The position numbers were made by a program, and so were the translations under genes. A stretch of DNA of 64,000 bases from Epilithonimonas zeae (GTDB lineage: Bacteria; Bacteroidota; Bacteroidia; Flavobacteriales; Weeksellaceae), in NCBI RefSeq assembly GCF_023278365.1, contig NZ_CP075338.1, positions 434,001 through 498,000 of the forward strand, written 5' to 3'. Each line of letters begins with the position of its first letter. The stretch's first letter is position 1. The notes beneath the pieces were generated by a model. It did not search any database. It was not told the origin of the DNA and worked only from the letters and a program-made list of their open reading frames with translations. Positions 42,764 to 54,730 of this stretch are shown here, piece after piece.

Positions 42764-45139
42764 TTACAGAGATTCTACTGGTTCGATGGTTGGCATAAAG
42801 AATCTGTTAAGCCAATAAAACTTTTCTCCGTTCTGATCTATGATGATCTTTGGGTTACTTTTATTATTTAGCAATCTGTCTGCCAATGTTTTATATTGTT
42901 TGAAATAGTTTCTTACAATCTCATTGGAAACGACTTTCGGTTGTTTCCATCCACTCAGCTTATATGTAGAAAGTGTTTCTTCCGCTGAGTTATCAAATCC
43001 TGTACTGACAGCGACAGAATAAGCCATAGACTGATTTCTCAGTTTTGATTTATCAAATTTTGTATCGCCGGAGTAATACTTTTTAAGTGTTTTCAGGTAA
43101 GAGTTAATTGCTGATTCCTGACTGAAAGTAGGTGTGAAACTTTTTGTTTCCTGATAAATTTCCTGATAAAAAGCTCTTAGTTTATCGTATTCGGTTTCAG
43201 ACAAAAGAATTCCTTTTTCAACGGCCGGATAACTTTCCTTTAACTCATTGGAAAAAGTCCCTTTGGTTATAAACGGATTGTTATAAGTAATCAACTGCGT
43301 TGTAGTTTCCGTTGGGATAGGTGTTGGTGCATTAGAAAACTGATTTCTGAAATCTGGCTTCACAACCGTTTTGGAACTTCCGACAGCTGATTTGAAATAG
43401 TTAGTCAAAGAAGTATTGACTGTTTTATTATAATCAATAACCTGAGTAATTAAACTATCTAATGATTTAACAAGCAGATTACTGGAATTAATTTCGCCTT
43501 TTCTAGGATAAACAACAAAACCCTGAGCCATACTTGCTTTCGGATAATCCAAAGAATAAACGCCGCCTTCTCCCATTACAAGGTTGTAATTGTTCTTATC
43601 CATAATCATTTTTTGATCAACGATTCTGGCTTTGTCCAATTCTGCAATATTTCTGGCTGTACCTGTTAAAACATTTTCTGAGAATAATACGAAGTTGTTG
43701 TAATAATCAGAAGAGCCTGAAGCGGATTGAAAGAATAGCATTTTTGCACGTGCTTTAGTTAGGTTTCGCATAGCCTCGCTAAGTCCTCCAAAGCTGGAAG
43801 CTGTAGATCCCACAACAATAACGATATTGGTTTCGTCTGAATTATTTTTGATTAATTCTCCAGTAGTTGAAAGTGCTTCTAACAGAGGTTGTGCGCCGCT
43901 ATTACTACAATTTTGATTAGATGTTTGCAAGTCTATAAAAGAATTGATTTCCTCAAAATTATTGCTCAAAGCTGATGGTAAAATATCTTCTCCACAGTTG
44001 TTATTTTTGTAAAGAACAGCACCGTATTTGATGCTTTTAAAATATTTTAATTGGTCTAATTTCAACTGGATATCCTGAAAAACAGATTTAGCCAAAGCAG
44101 AATTCTGAATATTATCCCGGCTGATATCAACAGTGAAGACAATGTTCAGATTTTTGCTTCTGTTAGTTATTTCTTTGAATCTGTCATAATAAACAGGTTG
44201 TCCCAAAACATTATAAACAAAGTTTTTGCTGTAATCCAAAGCATTTGTGAAGAATCTTGCTTTGTTAGAATTATCAACCGTGGAAGGCGAAACCGAAACC
44301 AAATTTTCTATAGCGGTTCTGTTGATTCCGTCAGAAAGTGGAAAGTTGGTTTCTGTAAAAGATCCATCCGGATTTTGTTTATTGATAGCTAAATTATTTT
44401 CATCAGCATAATTGAAATCTGATGAAACTTTCAAAGCAGTTCTGTCGCCCCAATTGGCAATCATATTGGAACTAATCCAACCGTAAACATCTTTGGAAAT
44501 GCTATCGATTTTTAGATTTGGTGATTTTCCGATTAAGAATCTGTTATTAGCTTCGGATTGTTTGTAGATGTAAACTAATTGTCCAACGGCAATTTTTTTG
44601 CTGATAGGTTTTGTGAGATCCGGCGATGAGAAAATCAAGGCAGAATCGCCTTTCATATATTTTGAACCGTTTTTCAAAACATCAGAATTATTTGGAGAAA
44701 TAACCGCTTTTACGTTAAAACCATTATCACTTCTTTTCAAAGAATTGGTCCAAAGCAATAACTGGTCTTTCGGGATCCAACCATAAGTTTTAACTGACTT
44801 GGAAGGGATTTTTTTCATCAAAGCATCAGGATTATATTCTGCAACTTTGATCAGATTTTTAGATTCTTTTTGCTTAACAACTAATAAGGGTTCCAAGAAT
44901 TTGATTTCTTTAGGTGATTTTTCTTCACCCTTATCCATAAAAACAGTGTTGTTGGCACGATCAGAAATTACCACCCAAGGTTCAGCTTTTTTAGGAAATC
45001 CGTCATTCACTTTTACTTGATCTACGTAGCCGTAAAAATCAGAATCTGGTGTTTCCTGAGAAGGAATCCTGACTTGACATCCAATCAAAATATATACAGA
45101 ACCAAAAAGGTAGGCAGCGCTAAGGAAGTTATTTTTCAT
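42764..45139 (-). CDS. tssR: TssR, T6SSiii periplasmic lipoprotein
   Basis: 791 residues with a lipoprotein signal (SVYILIGC). SH3-like segments include VKTYGWIPKDQLLLWTNSL and DVYGWISSNMIANWGD, and a von Willebrand A-like region is near residue 335 (LNIVFTVDISRDNIQ), whose metal site is altered (DISRD). This matches TssR, the large outer-membrane-side component unique to T6SSiii. It lies between tssP and tssB, as expected for the T6SSiii envelope complex. Confidence 0.88.
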   Translation of the reverse strand: MKNNFLSAAYLFGSVYILIGCQVRIPSQETPDSDFYGYVDQVKVNDGFPKKAEPWVVISDRANNTVFMDKGEEKSPKEIKFLEPLLVVKQKESKNLIKVAEYNPDALMKKIPSKSVKTYGWIPKDQLLLWTNSLKRSDNGFNVKAVISPNNSDVLKNGSKYMKGDSALIFSSPDLTKPISKKIAVGQLVYIYKQSEANNRFLIGKSPNLKIDSISKDVYGWISSNMIANWGDRTALKVSSDFNYADENNLAINKQNPDGSFTETNFPLSDGINRTAIENLVSVSPSTVDNSNKARFFTNALDYSKNFVYNVLGQPVYYDRFKEITNRSKNLNIVFTVDISRDNIQNSALAKSVFQDIQLKLDQLKYFKSIKYGAVLYKNNNCGEDILPSALSNNFEEINSFIDLQTSNQNCSNSGAQPLLEALSTTGELIKNNSDETNIVIVVGSTASSFGGLSEAMRNLTKARAKMLFFQSASGSSDYYNNFVLFSENVLTGTARNIAELDKARIVDQKMIMDKNNYNLVMGEGGVYSLDYPKASMAQGFVVYPRKGEINSSNLLVKSLDSLITQVIDYNKTVNTSLTNYFKSAVGSSKTVVKPDFRNQFSNAPTPIPTETTTQLITYNNPFITKGTFSNELKESYPAVEKGILLSETEYDKLRAFYQEIYQETKSFTPTFSQESAINSYLKTLKKYYSGDTKFDKSKLRNQSMAYSVAVSTGFDNSAEETLSTYKLSGWKQPKVVSNEIVRNYFKQYKTLADRLLNNKSNPKIIIDQNGEKFYWLNRFFMPTIEPVESL

Positions 45140-45159
45140 AATTTATTTTTTTAGTTTAT

Positions 45160-46077
45160 TTACTTGCTTTGCTTTACTTCTACTTTGACAACGCAATTTT
45201 GATTGGTGTCCAAAGTGGTTTTCACTTCCTGTATAGAATTATTTTTATCGAACTGCAAACCCATGCAATAGTTGTAGAATGAGTTGTTTTTATCATTCAC
45301 AGTTAGTCCAATGTTATCTTTATTACATAGATAAGTACTGAGAAGATAATTGTAATGACTGTTGAAATTGTTGCCATTGGCAATTTGCTGAAGGTGATAT
45401 TTGAAATCATCATTGATTTTGCTGTAGATATCCGTCACTGTTGGCGCTGTAGCAACTTCGTCATCCAAATCTTCATAAGCCGGAAGAATTTTTATCATAT
45501 GCTGAATAGGCTCATTATCAATATCAGTATATAAAGTCACAATATAATTTCCCGGATTTTTGAAGGCGTAAGTTGCCATTTTTTCTTTAGCATCAATGTT
45601 TCCGGTTTCTCCAAATTTCCAAGTAAATATTTTAGCATCGGGAGAATCTGCACGGAAAAACACATTTTCCAATTGCATTGCCTGGGTCGGAGCATCTATT
45701 CTGGTAGCCGCTTTTGCAGTGTCTGCAGGTTTGGAATAACCTCCTGAAACCAAAACAGGAAAAGACTTGGTGTACTTGTTGTCGATAATTACAGAAACTT
45801 GATAATATCCAGGTTTTTTGAAAAAGTGAGAACCTTTGTTTTTGTCAGAATTAAATCCATCTCCAAAATCCCATTTTCTTGTTTTTCCGAAAGTGGTTTT
45901 GTCTTCAAATGTCAATGTATCGCCCACATTGAGAGATGTTGGATAAACTGCTGCAACAATATCGTCTGAGCTATGGATGACTTTTCTCTGTAACCACAAA
46001 ATAATAATGGCCGCTAAAAGCAAAAGACTTATTACTGCAATAATAATGTTCTTCCTGTTTTTTTGGATGTAATTCAT
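45160..46077 (-). CDS. tssP: TssP, PKD-domain inner-membrane protein
   Basis: 305 residues: one N-terminal membrane helix (IIIAVISLLLLAAIIILWLQ) and two periplasmic PKD-like domains, seen as WDFGDGFNSD...PGYYQVSV (about 68-105) and FTWKFGETG...NPGNYIVTLYT (about 150-190). This is the expected layout of TssP in the T6SSiii envelope complex. 12-base gap to the upstream gene. Confidence 0.82.
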   Translation of the reverse strand: MNYIQKNRKNIIIAVISLLLLAAIIILWLQRKVIHSSDDIVAAVYPTSLNVGDTLTFEDKTTFGKTRKWDFGDGFNSDKNKGSHFFKKPGYYQVSVIIDNKYTKSFPVLVSGGYSKPADTAKAATRIDAPTQAMQLENVFFRADSPDAKIFTWKFGETGNIDAKEKMATYAFKNPGNYIVTLYTDIDNEPIQHMIKILPAYEDLDDEVATAPTVTDIYSKINDDFKYHLQQIANGNNFNSHYNYLLSTYLCNKDNIGLTVNDKNNSFYNYCMGLQFDKNNSIQEVKTTLDTNQNCVVKVEVKQSK

Positions 46078-46089
46078 AATTAAAAGTTG

Positions 46090-46614
46090 TTAGTTATTTT
46101 TCATAAGTAATGCGTTATCTCTTTGCAATTTTTGATTTTTTCTTTCCTTGAAACCAATAGAACAATCTTCAAACTGTTTGGTGAAAATCTTGATGTTTTC
46201 ATTTTTTTTACCCGCGATATTTTTGTCTTCCACATACATTTTGTAGAACTGGGCAATCTGCTTGTAAGATTCTTTTCTTGGATCCGTGATATTCACAGTT
46301 TCGAAAATGTTAGCAATATCATTAATGCTATATCTGATTTCGTTTTCCAAGAGAGGATTTTGATTCTCTACAGACACTTTTTCGATTTTGTTAAAAGTGC
46401 TGTCGATAACAGGTTGCGCAATTTTTTGACGATCATCGAATTTTACTTTTTCTTCCAAGGTCTGGATTGCCAGAATATCAGAATTGTTGAAGGGCGACTC
46501 ATAACGGTACAGAATAATTACTGAAAGCAGCAAGACTGCAAAAAAGAGTAGTCCCAAAAGGTACAAGAAGTAGTATCTTTTTTCTTTGTTAGAAAGGATA
46601 ATTTTGGCTTGCAT
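46090..46614 (-). CDS. TssO-like single-pass membrane protein
   Basis: 174 residues with a short cytoplasmic N terminus, one membrane helix (YYFLYLLGLLFFAVLLLSVI) and a helical periplasmic part. Topology and position between tssO and tssP suggest a second TssO-type component of the envelope complex; sequence resemblance to its neighbour is weak. The alternative is an unnamed T6SSiii accessory protein. Confidence 0.6.
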   Translation of the reverse strand: MQAKIILSNKEKRYYFLYLLGLLFFAVLLLSVIILYRYESPFNNSDILAIQTLEEKVKFDDRQKIAQPVIDSTFNKIEKVSVENQNPLLENEIRYSINDIANIFETVNITDPRKESYKQIAQFYKMYVEDKNIAGKKNENIKIFTKQFEDCSIGFKERKNQKLQRDNALLMKNN

Positions 46615-46625
46615 AGTTTTTTAGT

Positions 46626-47159
46626 TTATTTTAATCGTCTTGCTATTTTTCCACCTGGCTCATTATTTTTGATTTGGGTATTGATTTTTTCTACTTTCCC
46701 CATACATTCATTTAGGTTTCTTATGGCATTTCTTTCTTTAGCAGTTACGTTAATGAGTTCATTTTTGAAAATGGTCATTTTTCCAATGTTTTTAGTCAGC
46801 GTAGAATATTGTTTGAAAGCTTTGCTGCTATCCGCTCCCATAATATTTTTAGTGTCCTGAAGATCTTCCAGAATTGAGTTTCTAAGGAAAATGTCATTCT
46901 GTACCCTGTCTGTATTTAGCAAAGCCATTTTATAGTAAATGGTATCCATTTTAATTTTCAGAAGTTCATTCCTGCTGAGAACATTTTTATAGTCATTCAG
47001 TTCTTTTTGAATTTGTTCTCTCTGAATTGTTGAGCTTTTGAAAAACAGAAAAACAGTTGTTAAGCTGATCGATATTAAAACAATGAATGAAAATATGAAT
47101 CGGATAATTCCGTTTCTTACATCATCTGAGTTCAGTCTTTTTTGTCCTTGTGTAGCCAT
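46626..47159 (-). CDS. tssO: TssO, T6SSiii transmembrane protein
   Basis: I start at 47159 (MATQGQKRLNSDDVRNGIIR); upstream codons lack an ATG and run toward the regulator gene. 177 residues: one membrane helix (FIFSFIVLISISLTTVFLFF) and a long periplasmic helical region with LNDYKNVLSRNELLKIKMD and AIRNLNECMG. This pattern fits TssO of Flavobacteriia. It is the first structural gene after the response-regulator gene, 5 bases downstream of its stop. Confidence 0.78.
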   Translation of the reverse strand: MATQGQKRLNSDDVRNGIIRFIFSFIVLISISLTTVFLFFKSSTIQREQIQKELNDYKNVLSRNELLKIKMDTIYYKMALLNTDRVQNDIFLRNSILEDLQDTKNIMGADSSKAFKQYSTLTKNIGKMTIFKNELINVTAKERNAIRNLNECMGKVEKINTQIKNNEPGGKIARRLK

Positions 47160-47164
47160 GATTT

Positions 47165-47836
47165 CTAAATACTTGAATTGTAATATCCGTTTTCTACACA
47201 AAATCGGGCAAGATCCAATTTGCTTTTAAGTCCCAGTTTTTCAGTCAATCTATTAATATAAGTATCAATTGTTCTTGTGCTTAAGCTTATTCGGTCGCCG
47301 ATTTCTTTATTGCTGAATCCTTCATAGCACAGCTTAATGATATGAATCTCCGTAACGTTCAGTTCGTCTTGTTGTTTTTTCTGGCGATCCATGTAGCTTT
47401 TCACAACTTCTTCCTGCGACGCCCATTCTTTTTTATACTCCTCATAATCAGAATTTTTACTCAGAATACAATTTCTAAGAATATCTTTTATAATAATGCT
47501 GTTTTTTTGACAATAGAAAGTGTTAGGAATTTCGCTAAGAGTAGCGGCCATGTCATCCTGATAAGTTGTGGAGTAAGTAAGAATTGGAACATCCTTATTG
47601 TGTTGACGAATATATTTTATCGCTTCGATTCCGCTTAGGATTGGCATAAACAAGTTGATGATGAATACATCTTCTTGCTTTCTGTAAAGCCTGTTAATTA
47701 ATTCGTTACCATTATTACAATCATTAACAATAGAAAACAAAGGGTTTTCCAAAAGCATTTTAACCAAAAACTGCTTAAAATAGAAATCGTTTTCTGCGAT
47801 TGAAAAGCGTATCGCTTTTGTAGAAGTATTGTACAT
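47165..47836 (-). CDS. Atypical LuxR/NarL-type response regulator heading the tss operon
   Basis: 223 residues. The receiver domain (1-125) keeps the fold but lacks the phosphoacceptor: IINLFMPILSG has Asn61 where Asp is expected, and the acidic pair reads E-N-D at 15-17; Lys111 is retained. The C-terminal HTH_LuxR domain (about 155-215) has the pattern LNVTEIHIIKLCYEGFSNKE and LSTRTIDTYINRL. No histidine kinase is nearby. As first gene of the minus tss operon it is the best candidate for the local T6SS regulator, presumably phosphorylation-independent. Confidence 0.85.
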   Translation of the reverse strand: MYNTSTKAIRFSIAENDFYFKQFLVKMLLENPLFSIVNDCNNGNELINRLYRKQEDVFIINLFMPILSGIEAIKYIRQHNKDVPILTYSTTYQDDMAATLSEIPNTFYCQKNSIIIKDILRNCILSKNSDYEEYKKEWASQEEVVKSYMDRQKKQQDELNVTEIHIIKLCYEGFSNKEIGDRISLSTRTIDTYINRLTEKLGLKSKLDLARFCVENGYYNSSI

Positions 47837-48408
47837 ATTGAATATTCAGGGATTTTAGTTTTTAAAAAGGAGACCAAAAAGTTCAAAATATTTAAATCAA
47901 TCGATTTAATAAAAAGCTAAATCAGAAGAATATTCTGCTGGGAGGAATTTTCCTTTTTGCAGAGCAGCAAGAGGAAATGATAAAGTGATAAAGTAAGCTA
48001 TTCGATATAATCATTAAATAATTTTTAATAGAGTTTTACCCAAATTCTAAATCCGTTAATATTATTATTTGAAATAGTATCGAAAAATTAAACATCAAAT
48101 ATGTTGCCAATAAATTGTTAATAACTCAAATATGTTATGTATTGGTTAATTGTATTGTACTATTGTTGACTAATTAATATTTAGTTAAGATTATGTAAAA
48201 TACAGATATAATGGGAGTTTTGAAGTTATTTTGCTTCCTAAGTAGTGACTTATTTTTTTCTAAATATTATGCATAATGATTTTTTTAATATTCAAAAACC
48301 AGAATAGAGTGTTTAGAGCCTGTTTAAAATATGAATTTTAGGATTTAAAAAAATAAGTTTATATAGACACAGATTTATTTTATTAATTTTATCTGATACA
48401 ATTTTTAA
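47837..48408. other. AT-rich divergent intergenic region
   Basis: 572 bases between the response regulator (minus) and the MocR gene (plus). Very AT-rich with short repeats (CAAATATGTT twice, near 48089 and 48127). It must contain both promoters, but I cannot place a convincing pair of elements. No ORF or tRNA; the 13-bp T6SS operator is absent. Confidence 0.5.
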
Positions 48409-49824
48409 ATGGCAAGAGAAATTCTTTATCAGAAAATCGCAAAAATTATAGAAGAACAGATTCTTTCCGAAACCCTTCGGATTGGAGACAAATTACCTTC
48501 GATACGTTCGATACAAAAGAATTACAACGTTGGACTGAACACTGCGAAACAAGTATTTTTGGAGTTGGAAAGCAAATCGTTGGTAGAATCCCGACCAAGA
48601 TCTGGATATTACGTAAGCAGAACTTTTCAGAGAAAAATGGCGCTTCCTTCTGTTAGTGAACCAAGGCTTGCTAAGAAAGAAAATACTCCGGAAGAGTTAA
48701 CCCGAAAGGTTTTCGACTCACTTCAAGATAAAGATATTACAAGATTTTCATTAGGAATCCCAGATCAAAATTTGTTGCCGGTTGCCAAGTTAAATAAAGG
48801 GATTGTAAGAGCAATGCGAAGTCTTCCTGAAAGCGGAACCGAAATAGAGCCTGCACAAGGAAGCATTAATCTTCGCAGAAATATTGCCAAATGGTCGTTG
48901 GTTCTAGAAGGGAAGTTGACGGAAGATGATATTGTCACAACACATGGAACAATGAGTGCCATTTATTACTGTCTGCTTGCAGTTACAAAGCCCGGTGATA
49001 CCATTGCTACAGAAAGTCCGATGTATTTTGGGATTTTACAGTTAGCAAAATCGATGGGGTTGAATGTTATTGAACTTCCGACACATCCTGTCACCGGAGT
49101 CGATTTGGATGCTCTGAAAAAAAATATTCATAAAATTAATGCTTGCTGTTTTGTAACCAATTTCAGTAATCCTTTGGGAAGCCTGATGCCGGATGAAAAT
49201 AAAAAATTGCTTGTAGAGTTGCTGACTTACCACAATATCCCTTTGATCGAAGATGATTTGTTGGGAAACCTTTTCTTTGGAAATTCTCGCCCAAAGCCTT
49301 GTAAAGTATATGATGAGGCAGGAATTGTGATGTGGTGTGGCGGAGTTTCCAAGACTTTGTCTCCCGGTTATCGTGTAGGCTGGGTTGCTCCGGGAAAATT
49401 TAAAGAAAAAATTATTTGGCAGAAATTGGTACAGACCGTTTCAATGCCTTCACTGTTTCAGGAAGTGATTGCTGATTTTATGGAGTTTGGAAGATACGAT
49501 CATCATTTGAGAGGCTTGCGACAGACTTTACATACTAATTGTCTGAAATTTCAGCGAACTATTGAAGATTATTTTCCGGAAAATACAAAAATTTCTCAGC
49601 CTCAAGGTGGTTTCTTTCTTTGGCTTGAGCTGGATGGAAAAATGGATACTTCTGAGCTTTATGAGATTGCTATGGCGCAGAAAATCAGCTTTGCGCCAGG
49701 AAGATTATTCACTCAGCACAATCAGTTTAATAATTGTATGAGGCTAAGTTTTGCATTGAATTGGAATGAAAAAGTTGAATCAGATTTAATCAAATTAGGA
49801 AATATTATTAAACAGAATTTCTAA
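48409..49824 (+). CDS. MocR/GntR-type regulator with aminotransferase domain
   Basis: 471 residues. An N-terminal GntR winged helix (KIIEEQILSETLRIGDKLPS, then VGLNTAKQVFLELESKSLVE) is fused to a fold-type-I aminotransferase domain with the PLP lysine in GGVSKTLSPGYRVGW near residue 315. MocR-type proteins control vitamin B6, amino-acid or drug-export genes using PLP as cofactor. The EamA-type exporter 83 bases downstream on the same strand is a likely partner or target. Confidence 0.92.
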   Translation: MAREILYQKIAKIIEEQILSETLRIGDKLPSIRSIQKNYNVGLNTAKQVFLELESKSLVESRPRSGYYVSRTFQRKMALPSVSEPRLAKKENTPEELTRKVFDSLQDKDITRFSLGIPDQNLLPVAKLNKGIVRAMRSLPESGTEIEPAQGSINLRRNIAKWSLVLEGKLTEDDIVTTHGTMSAIYYCLLAVTKPGDTIATESPMYFGILQLAKSMGLNVIELPTHPVTGVDLDALKKNIHKINACCFVTNFSNPLGSLMPDENKKLLVELLTYHNIPLIEDDLLGNLFFGNSRPKPCKVYDEAGIVMWCGGVSKTLSPGYRVGWVAPGKFKEKIIWQKLVQTVSMPSLFQEVIADFMEFGRYDHHLRGLRQTLHTNCLKFQRTIEDYFPENTKISQPQGGFFLWLELDGKMDTSELYEIAMAQKISFAPGRLFTQHNQFNNCMRLSFALNWNEKVESDLIKLGNIIKQNF

Positions 49825-49907
49825 AATCTGTATCCATAAAAATATTAAAAACTATGTCTGTGTTCATTCGGAAATTGTAAGGAGATTTGTTCTTATAATT
49901 TTTACTA

Positions 49908-50816
49908 ATGTCAACTTCAACCAATCTTACAACAAAACATCTGCTTTTAGCTTTACTTACTGTTTTTATCTGGGGAACCAACTTTATTGCAATCTATATT
50001 GGGCTAAAAGAATTTCCGCCATTCTTATTGTGTGCTGCAAGATTTGGATTGGCAGCCTTCCCTTGGATTTTTATTTTACCGAGACCTAAAGCGTCTTTCA
50101 AATTGATTTTAGGCTTCGGAGTTTTTAATTTTGCGATGCAATTTGGATTGATGTTTACAGGAATTCATTTAGGATTATCTCCCGGATTATCATCATTGGT
50201 CTTACAAGTCCAGGTCTTTTTCTCAATGGCTTTAGCCTATATGTTTTTCCGTGAAAAACCAAGTTTATTCAAAATAATAGGTTCTTTGATTTCATTTATA
50301 GGAATTGGTATTGTAGCATCTCATATCAATGGTTCAGCAACTTTGATCGGATTGATTCTTACATTATTTGCTGCTTTATCTTGGGCTTTTGGGAATATAT
50401 ATACTAAGAAAATCAATTCAGATTCTCCGCTTTCATTAGTCGTTTGGGGTAATCTTGTGGCATTTCCGTTTATGATGATTTTATCATTTATTTTTGAAGG
50501 ACCAACTGTGATTATAGATTCGGTACAAAATGTTTCCTGGCCAACTATTGCTGCTGTTTTCTATATCGTTTACCTTTCCACGCATTTAGGATACGGACTC
50601 TGGGGTTATTTGATTAAAACTTATTCTACTTCTGCTGTAGTTCCTTTTACTTTATTGGTGCCTGTGGTTGGTTTTATTACTTCGGCTTTAGTGTTGAATG
50701 AAGAATTGACTTCCTGGAAAATCATTGCATCATTATTTATTATGGGAGGATTGGTTTTTAATTTATTTGAAAAGAGCATTCGAAAAATCTTAAATAAAAT
50801 TACGAGAAAGGGATAA
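49908..50816 (+). CDS. EamA (DMT superfamily) transporter
   Basis: 302 residues with about ten membrane helices forming two EamA repeats. The first repeat opens LLALLTVFIWGTNFIAIYIG and the second LFAALSWAFGNIYTKKI. Proteins of this group export amino acids or related metabolites. Directly downstream of the MocR gene, suggesting an export pair, possibly EamA regulated by MocR. Confidence 0.92.
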   Translation: MSTSTNLTTKHLLLALLTVFIWGTNFIAIYIGLKEFPPFLLCAARFGLAAFPWIFILPRPKASFKLILGFGVFNFAMQFGLMFTGIHLGLSPGLSSLVLQVQVFFSMALAYMFFREKPSLFKIIGSLISFIGIGIVASHINGSATLIGLILTLFAALSWAFGNIYTKKINSDSPLSLVVWGNLVAFPFMMILSFIFEGPTVIIDSVQNVSWPTIAAVFYIVYLSTHLGYGLWGYLIKTYSTSAVVPFTLLVPVVGFITSALVLNEELTSWKIIASLFIMGGLVFNLFEKSIRKILNKITRKG

Positions 50817-50883
50817 AACTAGAAAAACTGGTTTGTAAACTAATTCTGAATCTATTCCAAAACATTGAAATTACAACGTTTCA

Positions 50884-50913
50884 TTTGCGTATAAACAGAA
50901 TTATTTATCTTTG
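50884..50913 (+). promoter_or_regulatory. Consensus promoter of the first short ORF
   Basis: TTTG at 50884-50887 and TATCTTTG at 50906-50913, 18-base spacer: a textbook Bacteroidota -33/-7 pair. The transcript should start near 50920, so the ORF at 50927 would be nearly leaderless. Confidence 0.75.
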
Positions 50914-50926
50914 CGCTAGTAAAATT

Positions 50927-51055
50927 ATGACAATACAAAGAGCACATATCAATGCAAATCTATGCGATAGCCCTTCAACAAAGGGACTATTCGGATATGA
51001 ATGGGTGATGTGGAATGAGGCAAAATGTGCTTGGTTTGAAAATTATTTACTTTAA
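50927..51055 (+). CDS. Short ORF, 42 aa, between promoter and terminator
   Basis: MTIQRAHINANLCDSPSTKG and 22 more residues, rich in Trp/Tyr/Phe (EWVMWNEAKCAWFENYLL). A consensus promoter lies just upstream and an intrinsic terminator 30 bases downstream, so a short transcript is made. It may be a peptide, a leader, or a non-coding RNA: a 7-bp complement (AGCACAT/ATGTGCT, near 50940 and 51024) could pair its ends. A weakly similar ORF follows at 51441. Confidence 0.45.
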   Translation: MTIQRAHINANLCDSPSTKGLFGYEWVMWNEAKCAWFENYLL

Positions 51056-51085
51056 AACCGTAAAAATTTAATCAAAATACAATCT

Positions 51086-51115
51086 AAACGCCTCGATAAT
51101 CGGGGCGTTTTTTGT
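51086..51115 (+). terminator. Terminator of the first short ORF
   Basis: An 11-bp stem AACGCCTCGAT/ATCGGGGCGTT with one G-T pair, followed by TTTTTGTGTTTTT. Confidence 0.85.
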
Positions 51116-51340
51116 GTTTTTAGAGTGGAAATTATTTAGAATGAAAAAAAATAACCATAAAAGTGAAAATAATTTAATTAAAGATGAACAACTAATTAGA
51201 AAATAAGACGTGATAGAAAAACCAATGAGAGACAGTCATTTAGGTAAAATAGATATCTGTAAAATATTACGGACAGGATTTCCTTGTTTTTAATTTAATG
51301 TATAATTGATTGGTAATCAGTAATTTAATTCGAAAATAAA
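51116..51340. other. Spacer with possible gene remnant
   Basis: No solid gene. One frame reads MKKNNHKSENNLIKDEQLIRK (21 codons from 51141), a stop, and then in the same frame VIEKPMRDSHLGKIDICKIL onward to about 51280; this could be a small decayed gene or chance. Confidence 0.25.
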
Positions 51341-51372
51341 TTTGCGGATTCGAAAAAATCATATTTACTTTG
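51341..51372 (+). promoter_or_regulatory. Promoter of second short ORF and tRNA array
   Basis: TTTG at 51341-51344 and TTACTTTG at 51365-51372, 20-base spacer; the -7 element differs from consensus at one position. It could drive the short ORF and, by read-through, the tRNA-like array. Confidence 0.6.
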
Positions 51373-51440
51373 CAACCGAAAATTGAAAGCAACAAGTTTT
51401 CAATCTTTAAAAAAAGATATTTTAAAACAACAAGAATATA

Positions 51441-51566
51441 ATGAAACAATTACATCACATAGCTAATCAATATTCAAGACTGCTCGGAGAAGAGCCGAAA
51501 GGATTGCTATGTATTCTTGGGAGTGAATTGGTGTATAAAAGGTGCTTATATAAATGGGTCAGCTAA
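51441..51566 (+). CDS. Short ORF, 41 aa, upstream of tRNA array
   Basis: Begins MKQLHHIANQYSRLLGEEPK and ends YKRCLYKWVS. Like the ORF at 50927 it lies between a promoter and a terminator; both contain KGL followed later by a Cys and several aromatic residues, and the DNA is loosely similar over about 60 bases. The terminator ends 2 bases before tRNA-His, so the ORF could act as a leader for the array. Coding status is unproven. Confidence 0.4.
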   Translation: MKQLHHIANQYSRLLGEEPKGLLCILGSELVYKRCLYKWVS

Positions 51567-51590
51567 TAAACTGACACGTCAAAAAAATAT

Positions 51591-51622
51591 AAAAGCGCCT
51601 CCCAAAAAGAGGCGTTTTTTTT
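51591..51622 (+). terminator. Terminator abutting the tRNA array
   Basis: Stem CGCCTC/GAGGCG with a 7-base loop and eight T (51615-51622). Transcription of the array from the upstream promoter would need read-through or control at this hairpin. Confidence 0.8.
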
Positions 51623-51624
51623 AT

Positions 51625-51696
51625 GGTTTCTTTAGCTTATTTGGTAAAGCATCGGTTTGTGGCACCGAAGAACAGGGTTCGATTCCCGAAGAAACC
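51625..51696 (+). tRNA. tRNA-His(GTG)-like, defective T stem
   Basis: G-1 opposite C73 is present, the hallmark of tRNA-His. Acceptor GTTTCTT/AAGAAAC, U8-A9, D arm GCTT/AAGC with GG in the loop, anticodon stem TCGGT/ACCGA with GTG at 51659-51661. The T arm reads CAGGG-TTCGATT-CCCG: only three G-C pairs form and one base of the 3' strand is missing. Identity elements are kept while the fold is weakened. Confidence 0.75.
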
Positions 51697-51703
51697 CAAA
51701 GTT

Positions 51704-51777
51704 AATCTCATAGCTCAAAAGGTTAGAGCATCGACCTGATACGTCGAAGGTTGAAAGTTCGATTCTTTCTGAGATTA
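51704..51777 (+). tRNA. tRNA-Ile(GAT)
   Basis: A complete cloverleaf: acceptor AATCTCA/TGAGATT, D stem GCTC/GAGC, anticodon stem TCGAC/GTCGA with GAT at 51738-51740, variable AGGTT, T stem GAAAG/CTTTC with TTCGATT loop, discriminator A. No CCA encoded. It lies outside any rRNA operon, unlike the usual Ile(GAT) gene. Confidence 0.88.
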
Positions 51778-51782
51778 CAAAA

Positions 51783-51840
51783 GATTCACGGAAAAAATTT
51801 GGCTCCGACTGTCTCTCGGAAAAGAATTTTGAAGTGAGTC
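51783..51840 (+). ncRNA. Structured spacer hairpin between tRNA-Ile and tRNA-Pro
   Basis: Nested pairings: GATTCAC/GTGAGTC (one G-T), AAAATT/AATTTT inside it, and CCGA/TCGG with loop CTGTCTC at the centre. It may be a processing hairpin or a small RNA; less regular than the two hairpins further down. Confidence 0.4.
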
Positions 51841-51846
51841 TGAAAA

Positions 51847-51918
51847 CTGGAAAGATAACGGTGGTTGTTTACCCGCCTTGGACGCGGGAGGTCATAGGTT
51901 CGAATCCTATTTTCCAGA
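51847..51918 (+). tRNA. tRNA-Pro(TGG)-like, lacks U8
   Basis: Acceptor CTGGAAA/TTTCCAG, anticodon stem CCCGC/GCGGG with TGG at 51879-51881, T stem ATAGG/CCTAT with TTCGAAT loop. Position 8 is G instead of the near-invariant U and the D stem (TAAC/GTTT) has only three pairs. Discriminator A. Confidence 0.78.
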
Positions 51919-51923
51919 CAATT

Positions 51924-51995
51924 GCTCCATTCGTCTAACGGTTAGGACGTCTGCCTTTCGAGCAGGGAACAAGGGTTCGATTCCCTTATGGAGTA
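51924..51995 (+). tRNA. tRNA-Glu(TTC)
   Basis: Acceptor GCTCCAT/ATGGAGT with a G1-U72 wobble, D loop TAACGGTTAG, anticodon TTC at 51957-51959, T stem AAGGG/CCCTT with TTCGATT loop, discriminator A. The fold is complete; only the first pair is unusual. Confidence 0.85.
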
Positions 51996-52028
51996 CAATT
52001 AATTAATGTTAATTGTTTCAAAGAGAGA

Positions 52029-52097
52029 AAGAAAAGGTTTGTCAAGAGCAGGAGTTCTTTAAACAAAACACAAATTACAATAGACAGACTTTTTCTT
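52029..52097 (+). ncRNA. Long-hairpin RNA, copy 1
   Basis: A 15-bp stem AAGAAAAGGTTTGTC/GACAGACTTTTTCTT (two G-T pairs) closes a 39-base loop. The 5' loop sequence AGCAGGAGTTCTT recurs in copy 2 (CGCAGAAGTTCTT) and the 3' side AAATTA precedes GACAG in both. A repeated structured RNA between tRNA genes; it may be distantly related to the Y-like family downstream (TGTC then CAGAGTTACTT). Confidence 0.6.
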
Positions 52098-52160
52098 AAC
52101 TCGAAATTAAAATATAATTGAGAAATCTATTATCGTTCATCGATTATCATTTATAAAACT

Positions 52161-52242
52161 GATGGTTCGCCGAAGTGGGAGAGTCGGGACAGTCTGCAAC
52201 ACCGTTGTGAAAACTGAGTGGGTTCGAATCCCATAGCCATCT
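52161..52242 (+). tRNA. tRNA-Cys(GCA)-like with enlarged variable region
   Basis: Acceptor GATGGTT/AGCCATC (one wobble), D stem CCGA/TCGG, anticodon GCA at 52196-52198 in stem ACAGT/ACCGT (one A-C mismatch), T stem GTGGG/CCCAT with TTCGAAT loop, and U73, an identity element of tRNA-Cys. The variable region is about 12 bases rather than 4-5, and position 8 is C instead of U. Doubtful as a working tRNA. Confidence 0.65.
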
Positions 52243-52268
52243 CAAATAACTAAAATGAGATTAGTTCC

Positions 52269-52343
52269 GAAGAAAAAAAAGTTTGTCGAGCGCAGAAGTT
52301 CTTACATCATACCAAAAATTAAAGACAGGCTTTGTTTTTCTTC
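52269..52343 (+). ncRNA. Long-hairpin RNA, copy 2
   Basis: A 19-bp stem: 52269-52287 pairs with 52324-52343, ending ...AGTTTGTC/GACAGGCT..., with one bulged base and two G-T pairs, closing a 36-base loop. Shares GTTTGTC, GCAG-AGTTCTT and AAATTA-A-GACAG with copy 1 while the lower stem differs, so structure rather than sequence is kept. Confidence 0.6.
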
Positions 52344-52384
52344 AAAAAAATAGTTGGATAAAATTATTTATCAACTTTCAATAT

Positions 52385-52458
52385 GTGGAGGTGGCGGAAC
52401 TGGCAGACGCACTTGATTTAGGCTCAAGAAATTGAGGGTTCGACTCCCTCTCTCCGTA
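52385..52458 (+). tRNA. tRNA-Leu(TAG)-like without long variable arm
   Basis: Acceptor GTGGAGG/TCTCCGT with three wobble pairs, TGGCGGAACTGGCAGACGC D arm typical of tRNA-Leu, anticodon stem CTTGA/TCAAG with TAG at 52419-52421, T stem GAGGG/CCCTC. The variable region is only AAATT, whereas all bacterial tRNA-Leu have a long variable arm. Either a shortened tRNA or a mimic. Confidence 0.7.
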
Positions 52459-52538
52459 CAATTTTGTTGAAATAGAAAATAATAATTAAAAATTTAAATT
52501 TAAAATTAAACAAAAACAAATTCAAAAAATGTAGAAAA

Positions 52539-53024
52539 ATGGAAACGCAACAACAAAAATGGCAGAATATGAATGGAAAAATCTTCCGAAATTCTATCAC
52601 CAATTTGGTAGAAGAAGCCATCATCCGCGAACTAGCCAACGGACACCGACTGAAAGTTTGTGTGGGTTCAGATTCCCACGTTTACGGCGATACAATCAGT
52701 TATGCAACGGCAGTCGTTGTTATTCGTGAGGGAAAAGGAGCGTTTACATTTATCAGAAAACAAAGAGAGTTTCAAACAATCAGTATCAAAGAACGAATGC
52801 TGAACGAGGTTAACAAATCTGTAGAAATCGCTTATGCAATCTGTTCTATTTTGGAAACTTATAATGTGGAAATGGAAGTTCACGCCGATATCAATACGGA
52901 TCCGGATTTCAAATCCAATATCGCTTTGAAAGATGCAATGGGCTACATTTTGGGAATGGGCTACACTTTTAAGGCAAAACCATTTGCATTCGCAAGTTCC
53001 AACTGTGCTGATATGATGGTGTAA
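52539..53024 (+). CDS. RNase H-like protein (DUF458/YkuK type)
   Basis: 161 residues with the acidic pattern of an RNase H-like fold: CVGSDSHVYGDTISYATAV (first Asp, beta hairpin), EVNKSVEIAYAI, VHADINTDPDFKSN (acidic residues) and a C-terminal ASSNCADMMV (last Asp). This fits the DUF458 family of predicted nucleases. It sits between the tRNA array and the Ro60 gene, so action on RNA, perhaps processing of the array or Y-like RNAs, is a reasonable inference. No experimental role is known to me. Confidence 0.78.
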   Translation: METQQQKWQNMNGKIFRNSITNLVEEAIIRELANGHRLKVCVGSDSHVYGDTISYATAVVVIREGKGAFTFIRKQREFQTISIKERMLNEVNKSVEIAYAICSILETYNVEMEVHADINTDPDFKSNIALKDAMGYILGMGYTFKAKPFAFASSNCADMMV

Positions 53025-53139
53025 ATAATTCAAAATATTTTTTTTCTACGCAAAAACATTGCGCACTAACGTTTTTAATTTGCATCAGAAATTAGAGAGG
53101 CGATAATCTTCCTAATGTTTAACTAAAAAAACAGTAATT

Positions 53140-54657
53140 ATGAAATTTAATTTTTTAAGAAAATCAAATAGAGTAGTAACCAACTACGAAGGTGCAAAAG
53201 CTTACACGATGACACCTGCAGAAGAATTGTACAGTGCTGTTGTTACAACAGGATTATCCAATACTTCTTATGAAAAAGGAAATGAGAGATTGACGAGAAT
53301 TCAGTCCTTAATCCAAAAAAACGACCCGGATTTCGTGGCGAAATTAGCAGTTTATGCAAGAAAAGATATGTATTTGCGTTCGATTCCGCTGGTTTTGACA
53401 ACCGAATTGGCAAAGCAGACTTCAGGTACAGACTTGGTAAGTAGAACCGTTGACGGTGTTATCCAAAGAGCGGATGAAATCACAGAATTGTTGGCATATT
53501 ACCAATTAGCAAACGAAAGAACAGATGCTAAAAAGTTGAACATGCTTTCAAAACAAATCCAGAAAGGTTTGGTAAAATCATTCAACAAATTTGATGAATA
53601 CCAATTCGCAAAATACAACAGAAAAGCGGAAGTAACTTTGAAAGATGCTTTGTTCCTGGTTCATCCAAAAGCAAAAGATGAAAATCAACAGGCTATCTTC
53701 AACAAAATTGTAAACGACTCGTTGGAAACACCTTACACTTGGGAAGTTGAACTTTCGGTTTTGGGTCAGACTAAATTTGCGGATGATGCGCAAAGAAAAT
53801 CAGCTTTCAAAAGCAAATGGGAAGAATTGATTTTCAGTAACAAATTGGGTTATATGGCGACATTAAGAAACCTTAGAAATATCTTGGAAGCCAACGTTTC
53901 TTCTGAAGCAATGTACAAAGTTTGCAATTATTTGTCGGATGAAAAAGCGGTTAGAAACTCAAAACAATTGCCATTCAGATTTTTGTCAGCGTACAGAGAA
54001 TTGAAAAACATTGATTCAAAGTACATCTCATCAATCTTGGAAGCATTGGAAGATGCAGTGATGGTGAGTGCAATAAACATCAAAGGTTTTGGTTTCGAAA
54101 CTTCGGTTGTGATTGCGGCAGACGTTTCCGGTTCTATGCAAAAACCGGTTTCTCCGAAGTCCAAAGTTTTGCTTTATGATATCGGTTTACTGATGGCGAT
54201 GATGTTACAGTCGCAATGCAAAAACGTGATTACGGGTATGTTTGGTGACATTTGGAAAAGAGTTCCGATGCCGAAAAATGGTATTCTGAGAAACGTAGAT
54301 GCTTTCTACAAAAGGGAAGGTGAAGTTGGTTATTCCACAAACGGTTATCTTGTGATTGAGGATTTAATCAGAAGAAACGAAAAAGTGGACAAAGTAATGT
54401 TGTTTACCGATACTCAATTGTGGAACAGCAATGTAACCAATGATTCTTTTGAATATTCCTGGAATCGATATAAAAAAATCAATCCAAATGCGAAATTGTA
54501 TATTTTTGATTTGGCCGGCTACGGAAAACAACCGTTGGATATCAGAAAAAATGATGTCTATCTTATCGCAGGCTGGTCCGACAAAATCTTCGATGTACTG
54601 AATGCTTTGGAAGACCGAAAATCTGCAGTAGAAATGATTAAAAAAGTAGTGCTGTAA
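53140..54657 (+). CDS. rsr: Ro60/Rsr homologue (TROVE domain)
   Basis: 505 residues. The TROVE domain (about 15-320) is a HEAT-like ring that in Ro60/Rsr binds misfolded RNA 3' ends and Y RNAs; visible motifs are FVAKLAVYARKDMYLRSIPL and GYMATLRNLRNILEANV. The C-terminal von Willebrand A domain has an intact MIDAS motif DVSGSM near residue 328 and MLFTDTQLWN. In Deinococcus Rsr tethers PNPase through a Y RNA; in Salmonella rsr sits with rtcBA and Yrl RNAs. Here no rtcB is within the window, but Y-like RNA candidates follow directly. Confidence 0.92.
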   Translation: MKFNFLRKSNRVVTNYEGAKAYTMTPAEELYSAVVTTGLSNTSYEKGNERLTRIQSLIQKNDPDFVAKLAVYARKDMYLRSIPLVLTTELAKQTSGTDLVSRTVDGVIQRADEITELLAYYQLANERTDAKKLNMLSKQIQKGLVKSFNKFDEYQFAKYNRKAEVTLKDALFLVHPKAKDENQQAIFNKIVNDSLETPYTWEVELSVLGQTKFADDAQRKSAFKSKWEELIFSNKLGYMATLRNLRNILEANVSSEAMYKVCNYLSDEKAVRNSKQLPFRFLSAYRELKNIDSKYISSILEALEDAVMVSAINIKGFGFETSVVIAADVSGSMQKPVSPKSKVLLYDIGLLMAMMLQSQCKNVITGMFGDIWKRVPMPKNGILRNVDAFYKREGEVGYSTNGYLVIEDLIRRNEKVDKVMLFTDTQLWNSNVTNDSFEYSWNRYKKINPNAKLYIFDLAGYGKQPLDIRKNDVYLIAGWSDKIFDVLNALEDRKSAVEMIKKVVL

Positions 54658-54730
54658 AAAGCACTGCTTTAATAATGATCAATTATAAGTGATAAATGAT
54701 GAATGATTTTATGCTGAATATTACTTTAGT

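Follow-up and report, generated by a model that had tools for sequence, protein, structure and literature searches.

The window analysed here is a 64,000-nucleotide stretch of the Epilithonimonas zeae genome (NZ_CP075338.1, positions 434,001 to 498,000). It contains six tRNA genes, all called by ARAGORN on the + strand (51625-52459), preceded by a short leader ORF with a terminator and followed on the same strand by a PF04308 gene and by rsr (Table 1). A first-pass annotation of the sequence had placed this array next to rsr; rsr does lie downstream, but it does not adjoin the array, as the PF04308 gene intervenes. The six tRNAs and the deviations listed for their His, Pro, Cys and Leu members proved real by ARAGORN, RF00005 and inspection by eye, and the Ile and Glu members are normal, as had been described. 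RF00005 scores five of the six at 50-71 bits; it misses tRNA-Cys, which is covered only by a sub-threshold tRNA-Sec match. Position 8 is G in eight of nine array Pro sequences compared (in the ninth, L117, the call extends 7 nt further at the 5' end), and the A-C mismatch in the anticodon stem of the window's tRNA-Cys is private to the E. zeae genome among nine array Cys sequences compared. Canonical copies of all six isoacceptors, whose presence the annotation had proposed to check, are encoded at other sites of the genome, which is a single contig of 3.94 Mb: at least one for His, four for Ile, two for Pro, three for Glu, one for Cys and one for Leu(TAG), these being lower bounds as RF00005 scored 150 of 351 candidates. 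The hairpins that occupy two spacers between the tRNAs share the motif TTTGTC..GAGCGCAGAAGTTCTT..GACAGGC, and a stretch resembling them by eye persists in three congeners (L293-L295) from which the tRNAs are gone.

Table 1. Features of the array locus, in window coordinates
Feature	Position	Strand	Remarks
Promoter-like block TTTACTTTGCAACCGAAAATTGAAAGCAACA	51364..51394	+	Conserved 5' of the leader in most of 21 loci; also in array-less L293-L295
Leader ORF, 41 aa MKQLHHIANQYSRLLGEEPKGLLCILGSELVYKRCLYKWVS	51441..51566	+	17 of 20 amino acids
Antiterminator arm AAGGTGCTT	51539..51547	+	Leader codons K-R-C-L; complementary to terminator 5' arm
Intrinsic terminator AAGCGCCTC-CCAAAAA-GAGGCGTTT and T run	51593..51622	+	Stops three bases 5' of tRNA-His
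tRNA-His(GTG)	51625..51697	+	Weak T stem, 3/5 pairs; G-1:C73 retained
tRNA-Ile(GAT)	51704..51778	+	Normal; ARAGORN and RF00005
Array tRNA-Asp remnant, anticodon arm CCGACTGTCTCTCGG	51805..51819	+	Matches anticodon arm of relatives' array tRNA-Asp; by eye
tRNA-Pro(TGG)	51847..51919	+	G at position 8 instead of U8
tRNA-Glu(TTC)	51924..51996	+	Normal; ARAGORN and RF00005
Spacer hairpin, copy 1	52033..52101	+	Conserved motif, 19/21 loci
tRNA-Cys(GCA)	52161..52243	+	83 nt (canonical 74); small variable arm, region enlarged
Spacer hairpin, copy 2	52277..52343	+	Conserved motif, 19/21 loci
tRNA-Leu(TAG)	52385..52459	+	75 nt (canonical 83); lacks long variable arm
PF04308 (YkuK/DUF458) RNase H-like protein, 161 aa	52539..53024	+	112.5 bits, cut-off 25
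rsr, Ro60-like protein (TROVE and vWA), 505 aa	53140..54657	+	Pfam
Putative Y RNA-like repeats that include isolated T-arm sequences	54855..55930	+	TGtCGT...ACTTCG and T-loop motifs

The array and its PF04308 neighbor across related genomes

In the PF04308 protein, D45, E90 and D117 are invariant and a further C-terminal position is D or N. Its predicted structure (pLDDT 91.7) weakly matches RNase H1, EndoV and NurA in Foldseek (best E 0.003), and a PDB sequence search with the protein was empty; one publication (PMC3985635) assigns YkuK to the RNase H1 clade. Orthologues were detected in 177 of 320 genomes of the family, but in 4 of 23 in the window's own genus. The locus was compared in 94 Flavobacteriales genomes (81, two more, L107 and L109, and 11 further) with a PF04308 gene whose product is approximately 55% or more identical to the window's. 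A same-strand tRNA array lies directly upstream of the gene in 92 of the 94, all of the genomes compared being related and the counts not independent; the two genomes without one (L301 and L302) belong to one genus. In other families of the class (~55% identity), none of 20 PF04308 loci has an array within 8 kb, and two of them have scattered tRNAs (one and three). A mobile element was rejected as the context of the array, since two queries found no PF04308 gene on plasmids.

In 81 loci the arrays comprise 3-17 tRNAs each (median 11), and all 874 tRNAs share the strand of the PF04308 gene. They show two properties of long tRNA arrays, in that many isotypes follow one another on one strand at short spacing and, in the window's genome, are supernumerary to the housekeeping set; isotype coverage is partial in every array, with Ala and Val absent and Gly rare. 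At one locus (L113), the tRNA nearest upstream of the nuclease gene is Trp-like with anticodon TCA, a possible UGA reader.

Comparison of 240 distinct array tRNA sequences from 44 array loci indicates that the unusual shapes seen in the window are shared. Array tRNA-Leu lacks the long arm in 35 of 35 sequences (74-76 nt; canonical forms 83 and 85 nt), and array tRNA-Cys measures 83-85 nt in 21 of 21 (canonical 74 nt), a 75-nt Cys occurring in two loci of another family outside the stretches behind that count. Long arms are mostly kept by array Tyr and Ser, though not by Leu. Mean identity of an array tRNA to its canonical isoacceptor is 63%, and the best canonical match is of the same isotype for 107 of the 240; the array tRNAs are therefore not recent copies. 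Plain decay, which the first-pass annotation had also disfavored, is excluded because the altered shapes are common to many species, and the comparison of arrays between genomes that it had called for reveals recurring deviant forms with N73 mostly held, rather than random decay. In agreement with its claim that identity elements are retained, 208 of 222 array tRNAs match their canonical counterpart at N73, the identity base at the 3' terminus, a count that excludes 14 'Thr'-like and four odd-anticodon sequences. Anticodon loops deviate from canonical in many isotypes.

The 14 excluded sequences represent a peculiar 'Thr(TGT)' member, e.g. in L118-L122, which is tRNA-Gln-like with the loop AATGTAC. 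In these sequences U33 is absent or the loop altered, so normal decoding appears unlikely, and N73 is the canonical base in just 2 of 14; the member unlikely to decode is thus the same one whose acceptor end is free. It is perhaps a non-decoding decoy. Every other isotype represented by at least three sequences keeps N73 in most copies, and normal anticodon loops with U33 prevail. Of the earlier suggestion of decoy or reserve tRNAs, the reserve half fits these data, whereas decoy fits at most this one member.

A leader ORF with terminator and antiterminator

The promoter-like block TTTACTTTGCAACCGAAAATTGAAAGCAACA upstream of the leader may resemble the Bacteroidetes -7 element. A scan found the leader ORF and terminator together in 89 of 92 loci, some genomes being present twice. 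The three misses are explained by two stretches that begin within the array (L026 and L037) and by a divergent leader (L090, apparently L297's contig), and the arrangement is present in all 92 array loci overall; in L300 the script picked the wrong terminator and the hairpin was identified by eye. The leader ORF is typically 35-45 codons long in most genomes. In all 87 leaders measured, its ATG and the AGGTG motif are separated by a multiple of three nucleotides (six different distances occur), while the spacer between AGGTG and the terminator ranges freely over 49-58 nt. For leader pairs with at most 18 differing sites, pN/pS is a moderate 0.57 in the reading frame, against 0.78 and 1.20 in the other frames. 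Both observations suggest that the leader ORF is translated.

The terminator is present in 84 of 84 distinct leaders, and none of 74 distinct sequences loses any of the six core pairs of the antiterminator. The two arms of the terminator covary, as in GCGCCTC/GAGGCGC and GCACCTC/GAGGTGC, and the antiterminator pairing is conserved with other letters in L209 and L210 (AAGGAGAT with ATCTCCTT) and in L299 (GGGAGA with TCTCCC). Fold energies in the window are -17.6 kcal/mol for the antiterminator region and -13.1 kcal/mol for the terminator. As a control, codon-shuffled leaders gave a mean of -8.6 kcal/mol against the observed -12.4, and pairing was equally strong in 8% of shuffled leaders on average. 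No Rfam family, T-box included, reached its gathering threshold over 51364-51622. By sequence, terminator and antiterminator are mutually exclusive, as befits an attenuator.

The composition of the leader peptide is unusually diverse. The 78 distinct peptides contain on average 19.06 of the 20 amino acids, where random draws at the window's composition give 16.1; all 20 occur in 22 of 48 distinct 41-residue leaders, and 1.7% of 1664 real 41-residue stretches reach 19. Leaders in other genera are 16-46% identical to one another and to the window's (one pair with the window's at 40%), and contain 20 amino acids in 37 residues (L296), 19 in 39 (L298), 19 in 36 (L299), 18 in 39 (L297), 17 in 35 (L300) and 17 in 43 (L209). 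Combined over six genera, with the Chryseobacterium group entered as a consensus and L300 left out, this diversity has a p of 1.8e-6. Against this, the window's own leader is unremarkable (17/20 amino acids, p 0.37), as are those of L209 and L300 (17 amino acids each, p 0.44 and 0.19). When the columns of 48 aligned peptides were shuffled, the observed mean diversity over the first 29 residues was reached in 0 of 2000 shuffles; over the full-length peptide 7% of shuffles reach it, and coordination is not clear. Leader residues and array isotypes agree in 768 of 773 locus-isotype pairs, the 'Thr'-like member excluded, although this agreement is weak because leaders contain nearly every residue.

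In the amino-acid attenuators of trp and his operons, a leader ORF that repeats one or a few control codons precedes a terminator and a competing antiterminator. The same three elements are found here; unlike in trp and his, no run of cognate control codons occurs in the leaders, which instead contain about one of each amino acid and stand before tRNA genes that they would control. The leader would work like an attenuator, though not one of the classical single-amino-acid type. The leader can also occur apart from the array: in the three array- and nuclease-less congeners L293-L295, one with 19-20 amino acids precedes a phosphoesterase. In L292, seven tRNAs are left, the leader is frameshifted, and a HIRAN gene sits where the nuclease gene would be.

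Ro60, RNA-repair genes and phage relatives

All 27 genomes with both genes have rsr 3' of PF04308, 0.1 to 19.5 kb away and in the same orientation. Full-length rsr is missing from 15 of 42 genomes searched (14 without a match, one with a fragment), while 92 of 94 have PF04308 as the immediate neighbor of the array, and this weakens rsr as the array's key partner. Downstream of the array unit in Chryseobacterium, the same strand carries RNA-repair genes and Ro60. Between nuclease and rsr, ten proteins from three Chryseobacterium-type loci (L192, L193 and L199) include, by Pfam, a T4 Rnl2-type RNA ligase, cREC, a calcineurin-like phosphoesterase, RNase T, a beta-lactamase-fold protein and R2K ATP-grasp proteins. 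Neither an RNA ligase nor end-healing enzymes were found among the window ORFs searched with Pfam (44000-60000).

Downstream of rsr, the TGtCGT...ACTTCG and T-loop motifs are found in nearly all rsr loci (most of L026-L105), and these repeats are candidate bacterial Y RNAs, which mimic tRNAs. Several repeats occur per locus, with T-arm sequences approximately 140 nt apart. A Flavo-1 RNA (RF01705, 72.8 bits, 54737-54814, - strand) lies just 3' of rsr. In about 15 of 80 loci (e.g. L028 and L030), a pair of T-loop motifs some 70 nt apart, with no tRNA called by ARAGORN, sits about 2.4-4.9 kb 5' of rsr.

At E 1e-5, 64 phage records also contain PF04308 homologues, and Vibrio phages account for 52 of these. 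Of 26 phage loci inspected (eight GenBank phages and 18 IMG/VR loci), 24 contain tRNAs in the stretch covered and 19 have them no further than 2 kb from the PF04308 gene, and every tRNA is on the strand of that gene; the sample holds near-duplicates (L182 and L183) and the phages themselves are tRNA-rich, so that this proximity is an association, not proof. The PF04308 gene lies within the tRNA array in DSS3_MAL1 and a Leptolyngbya phage. The exceptions are megaphage types with at most two distant suppressor tRNAs (L170, L189 and L190) and L176, with none. One phage has an annotated peptidyl-tRNA hydrolase beside the PF04308 gene. Viral scans with P0002 and with the Leptolyngbya phage protein returned no relative. 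Two Vibrio phages (L166 and L171) encode a DUF2828/DUF7788 protein directly upstream of PF04308; the phage protein aligns with Ro60 at 80% hhalign probability over the vWA part only. In phiKT1024 (L173), an annotated TROVE protein is encoded about 10 kb downstream of PF04308.

Proposed control and possible role of the array

The array is probably an attenuation-controlled operon of reserve tRNAs, switched on by tRNA depletion. The redundancy of the tRNAs, their conserved deviant forms, the leader, terminator and antiterminator, and the gene order are read directly from sequence; from them we infer induction by depletion, charging and decoding by the array tRNAs, their resistance and a role for the nuclease. 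RNA polymerase would start upstream of a leader whose codons require nearly every amino acid. A ribosome reading the leader to its end would cover AGGTGCTT, allowing the terminator to form and keeping the array off. Were any common tRNA missing, e.g. through cleavage by an anticodon nuclease, the ribosome would stall early; a stall within the first two thirds of the leader would leave AGGTGCTT free to pair with the 5' arm of the terminator, and polymerase would continue through this antiterminator into the tRNAs and the PF04308 nuclease gene. In many relatives, read-through perhaps extends to the RNA-repair genes and Ro60. The nuclease could process array precursors or clear damaged tRNAs. Since identity elements are retained in the array tRNAs while their bodies and anticodon loops are altered, these tRNAs would probably replace damaged ones yet escape the damaging agent; we know of no nuclease target for this host. 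We also lean towards a more general formulation, a universal tRNA-shortage alarm in which a short peptide that demands every one of the 20 amino acids tests the ribosome, and failure at any of its codons would call up a second set of tRNAs of altered shape, a dedicated RNase H-fold nuclease that tRNA-rich phages also have, and an RNA-repair operon. The interpretation in the first-pass annotation is thus partly supported, and the near-all-amino-acid leader with its attenuator, the linked PF04308 gene and the RNA-repair genes in relatives go beyond it.

It is possible that the attenuator is real and that its signal is instead general inhibition of the ribosome by antibiotics or starvation, the array supporting stressed translation, although we hold this only tentatively. 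An all-codon attenuator would answer any slow ribosome, and parts of one report describe a tRNA array in Anabaena induced by translation-targeting antibiotics (PMC10272220). For such a signal, however, any leader composition would do and the one-of-each pattern needs another reason, while the downstream RNA-repair genes and Ro60 and the altered tRNA bodies point to tRNA damage. The nuclease itself might be the agent of depletion, destroying standard tRNAs and sparing the deviant ones in a takeover or shutdown device. Its RNase H fold, its conserved acidic residues and its association with tRNA arrays, both bacterial ones and those of several groups of phages, are compatible with this proposal, and a section of PMC10264068 considers the depletion of host tRNAs in the course of infection; we nevertheless consider it unlikely, as the family evidently has an array-independent role in the 20 array-less loci of other families and its peptidyl-tRNA hydrolase neighbor in a phage suggests tRNA upkeep.

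That the array RNAs are decoys, soaking up toxins or nucleases and taking no part in translation, would suit the one conserved member that lacks U33 and is free at N73, and so cannot decode normally, but is improbable for arrays whose remaining isotypes with more than two sequences mostly keep N73 and as a rule have U33 loops. The low identity to canonical isoacceptors, the tRNA-Asp relic in the window and the decaying L292 locus could all be expected if these were the decaying remains of a tRNA array from a phage or mobile element; with deviant lengths, gene order, strand and leader conserved over many species, we regard this account as highly improbable.

A reserve operon of this kind would share elements with several described systems. 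According to portions of PMC10272220, the trn operon on the delta plasmid of Anabaena PCC 7120 is normally silent and induced by translational stress. It is likewise a supernumerary tRNA cluster beside a housekeeping set, but as far as those portions describe it, it is controlled by the repressor TrcR, where a leader-peptide attenuator is predicted here together with linked PF04308 and RNA-repair genes. The rsr-yrlBA-rtcBA operon, as covered in part of PMC7790460, uses RtcR to sense tRNA fragments and RtcB as its ligase; it joins Ro60 and Y RNA-like elements to RNA repair upon tRNA damage, as is proposed here with candidate Y RNA-like repeats, and differs, on that partial account, from the Rnl2-type ligase (in relatives) and backup tRNAs found here. 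In phages, tRNA arrays have been proposed to evade anticodon nucleases, in the excerpts at hand of PMC10264068; these share with the present arrays redundant tRNAs, altered anticodon loops and, in several groups, a nearby PF04308 gene, whereas the arrays described here are chromosomal and preceded by a leader-peptide attenuator. Among titles and abstracts, our search found none that deals with a leader attenuator ahead of a tRNA array and none that deals with PF04308 next to such arrays; it mostly did not cover subscription papers, so a 2016 NAR survey of RNA damage or a 2021 NAR paper on Anabaena may mention tRNA arrays or YkuK.

If the proposed reading is true, these bacteria would possess a sensor for the loss of any tRNA that is coupled directly to replacement tRNAs and repair. 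It would offer a testable answer to why redundant, odd tRNAs persist in some bacteria and phages, and would place the uncharacterised PF04308/YkuK family in a functional setting. Moreover, bacterial Ro60 would be connected to tRNA damage via a switch other than RtcR.
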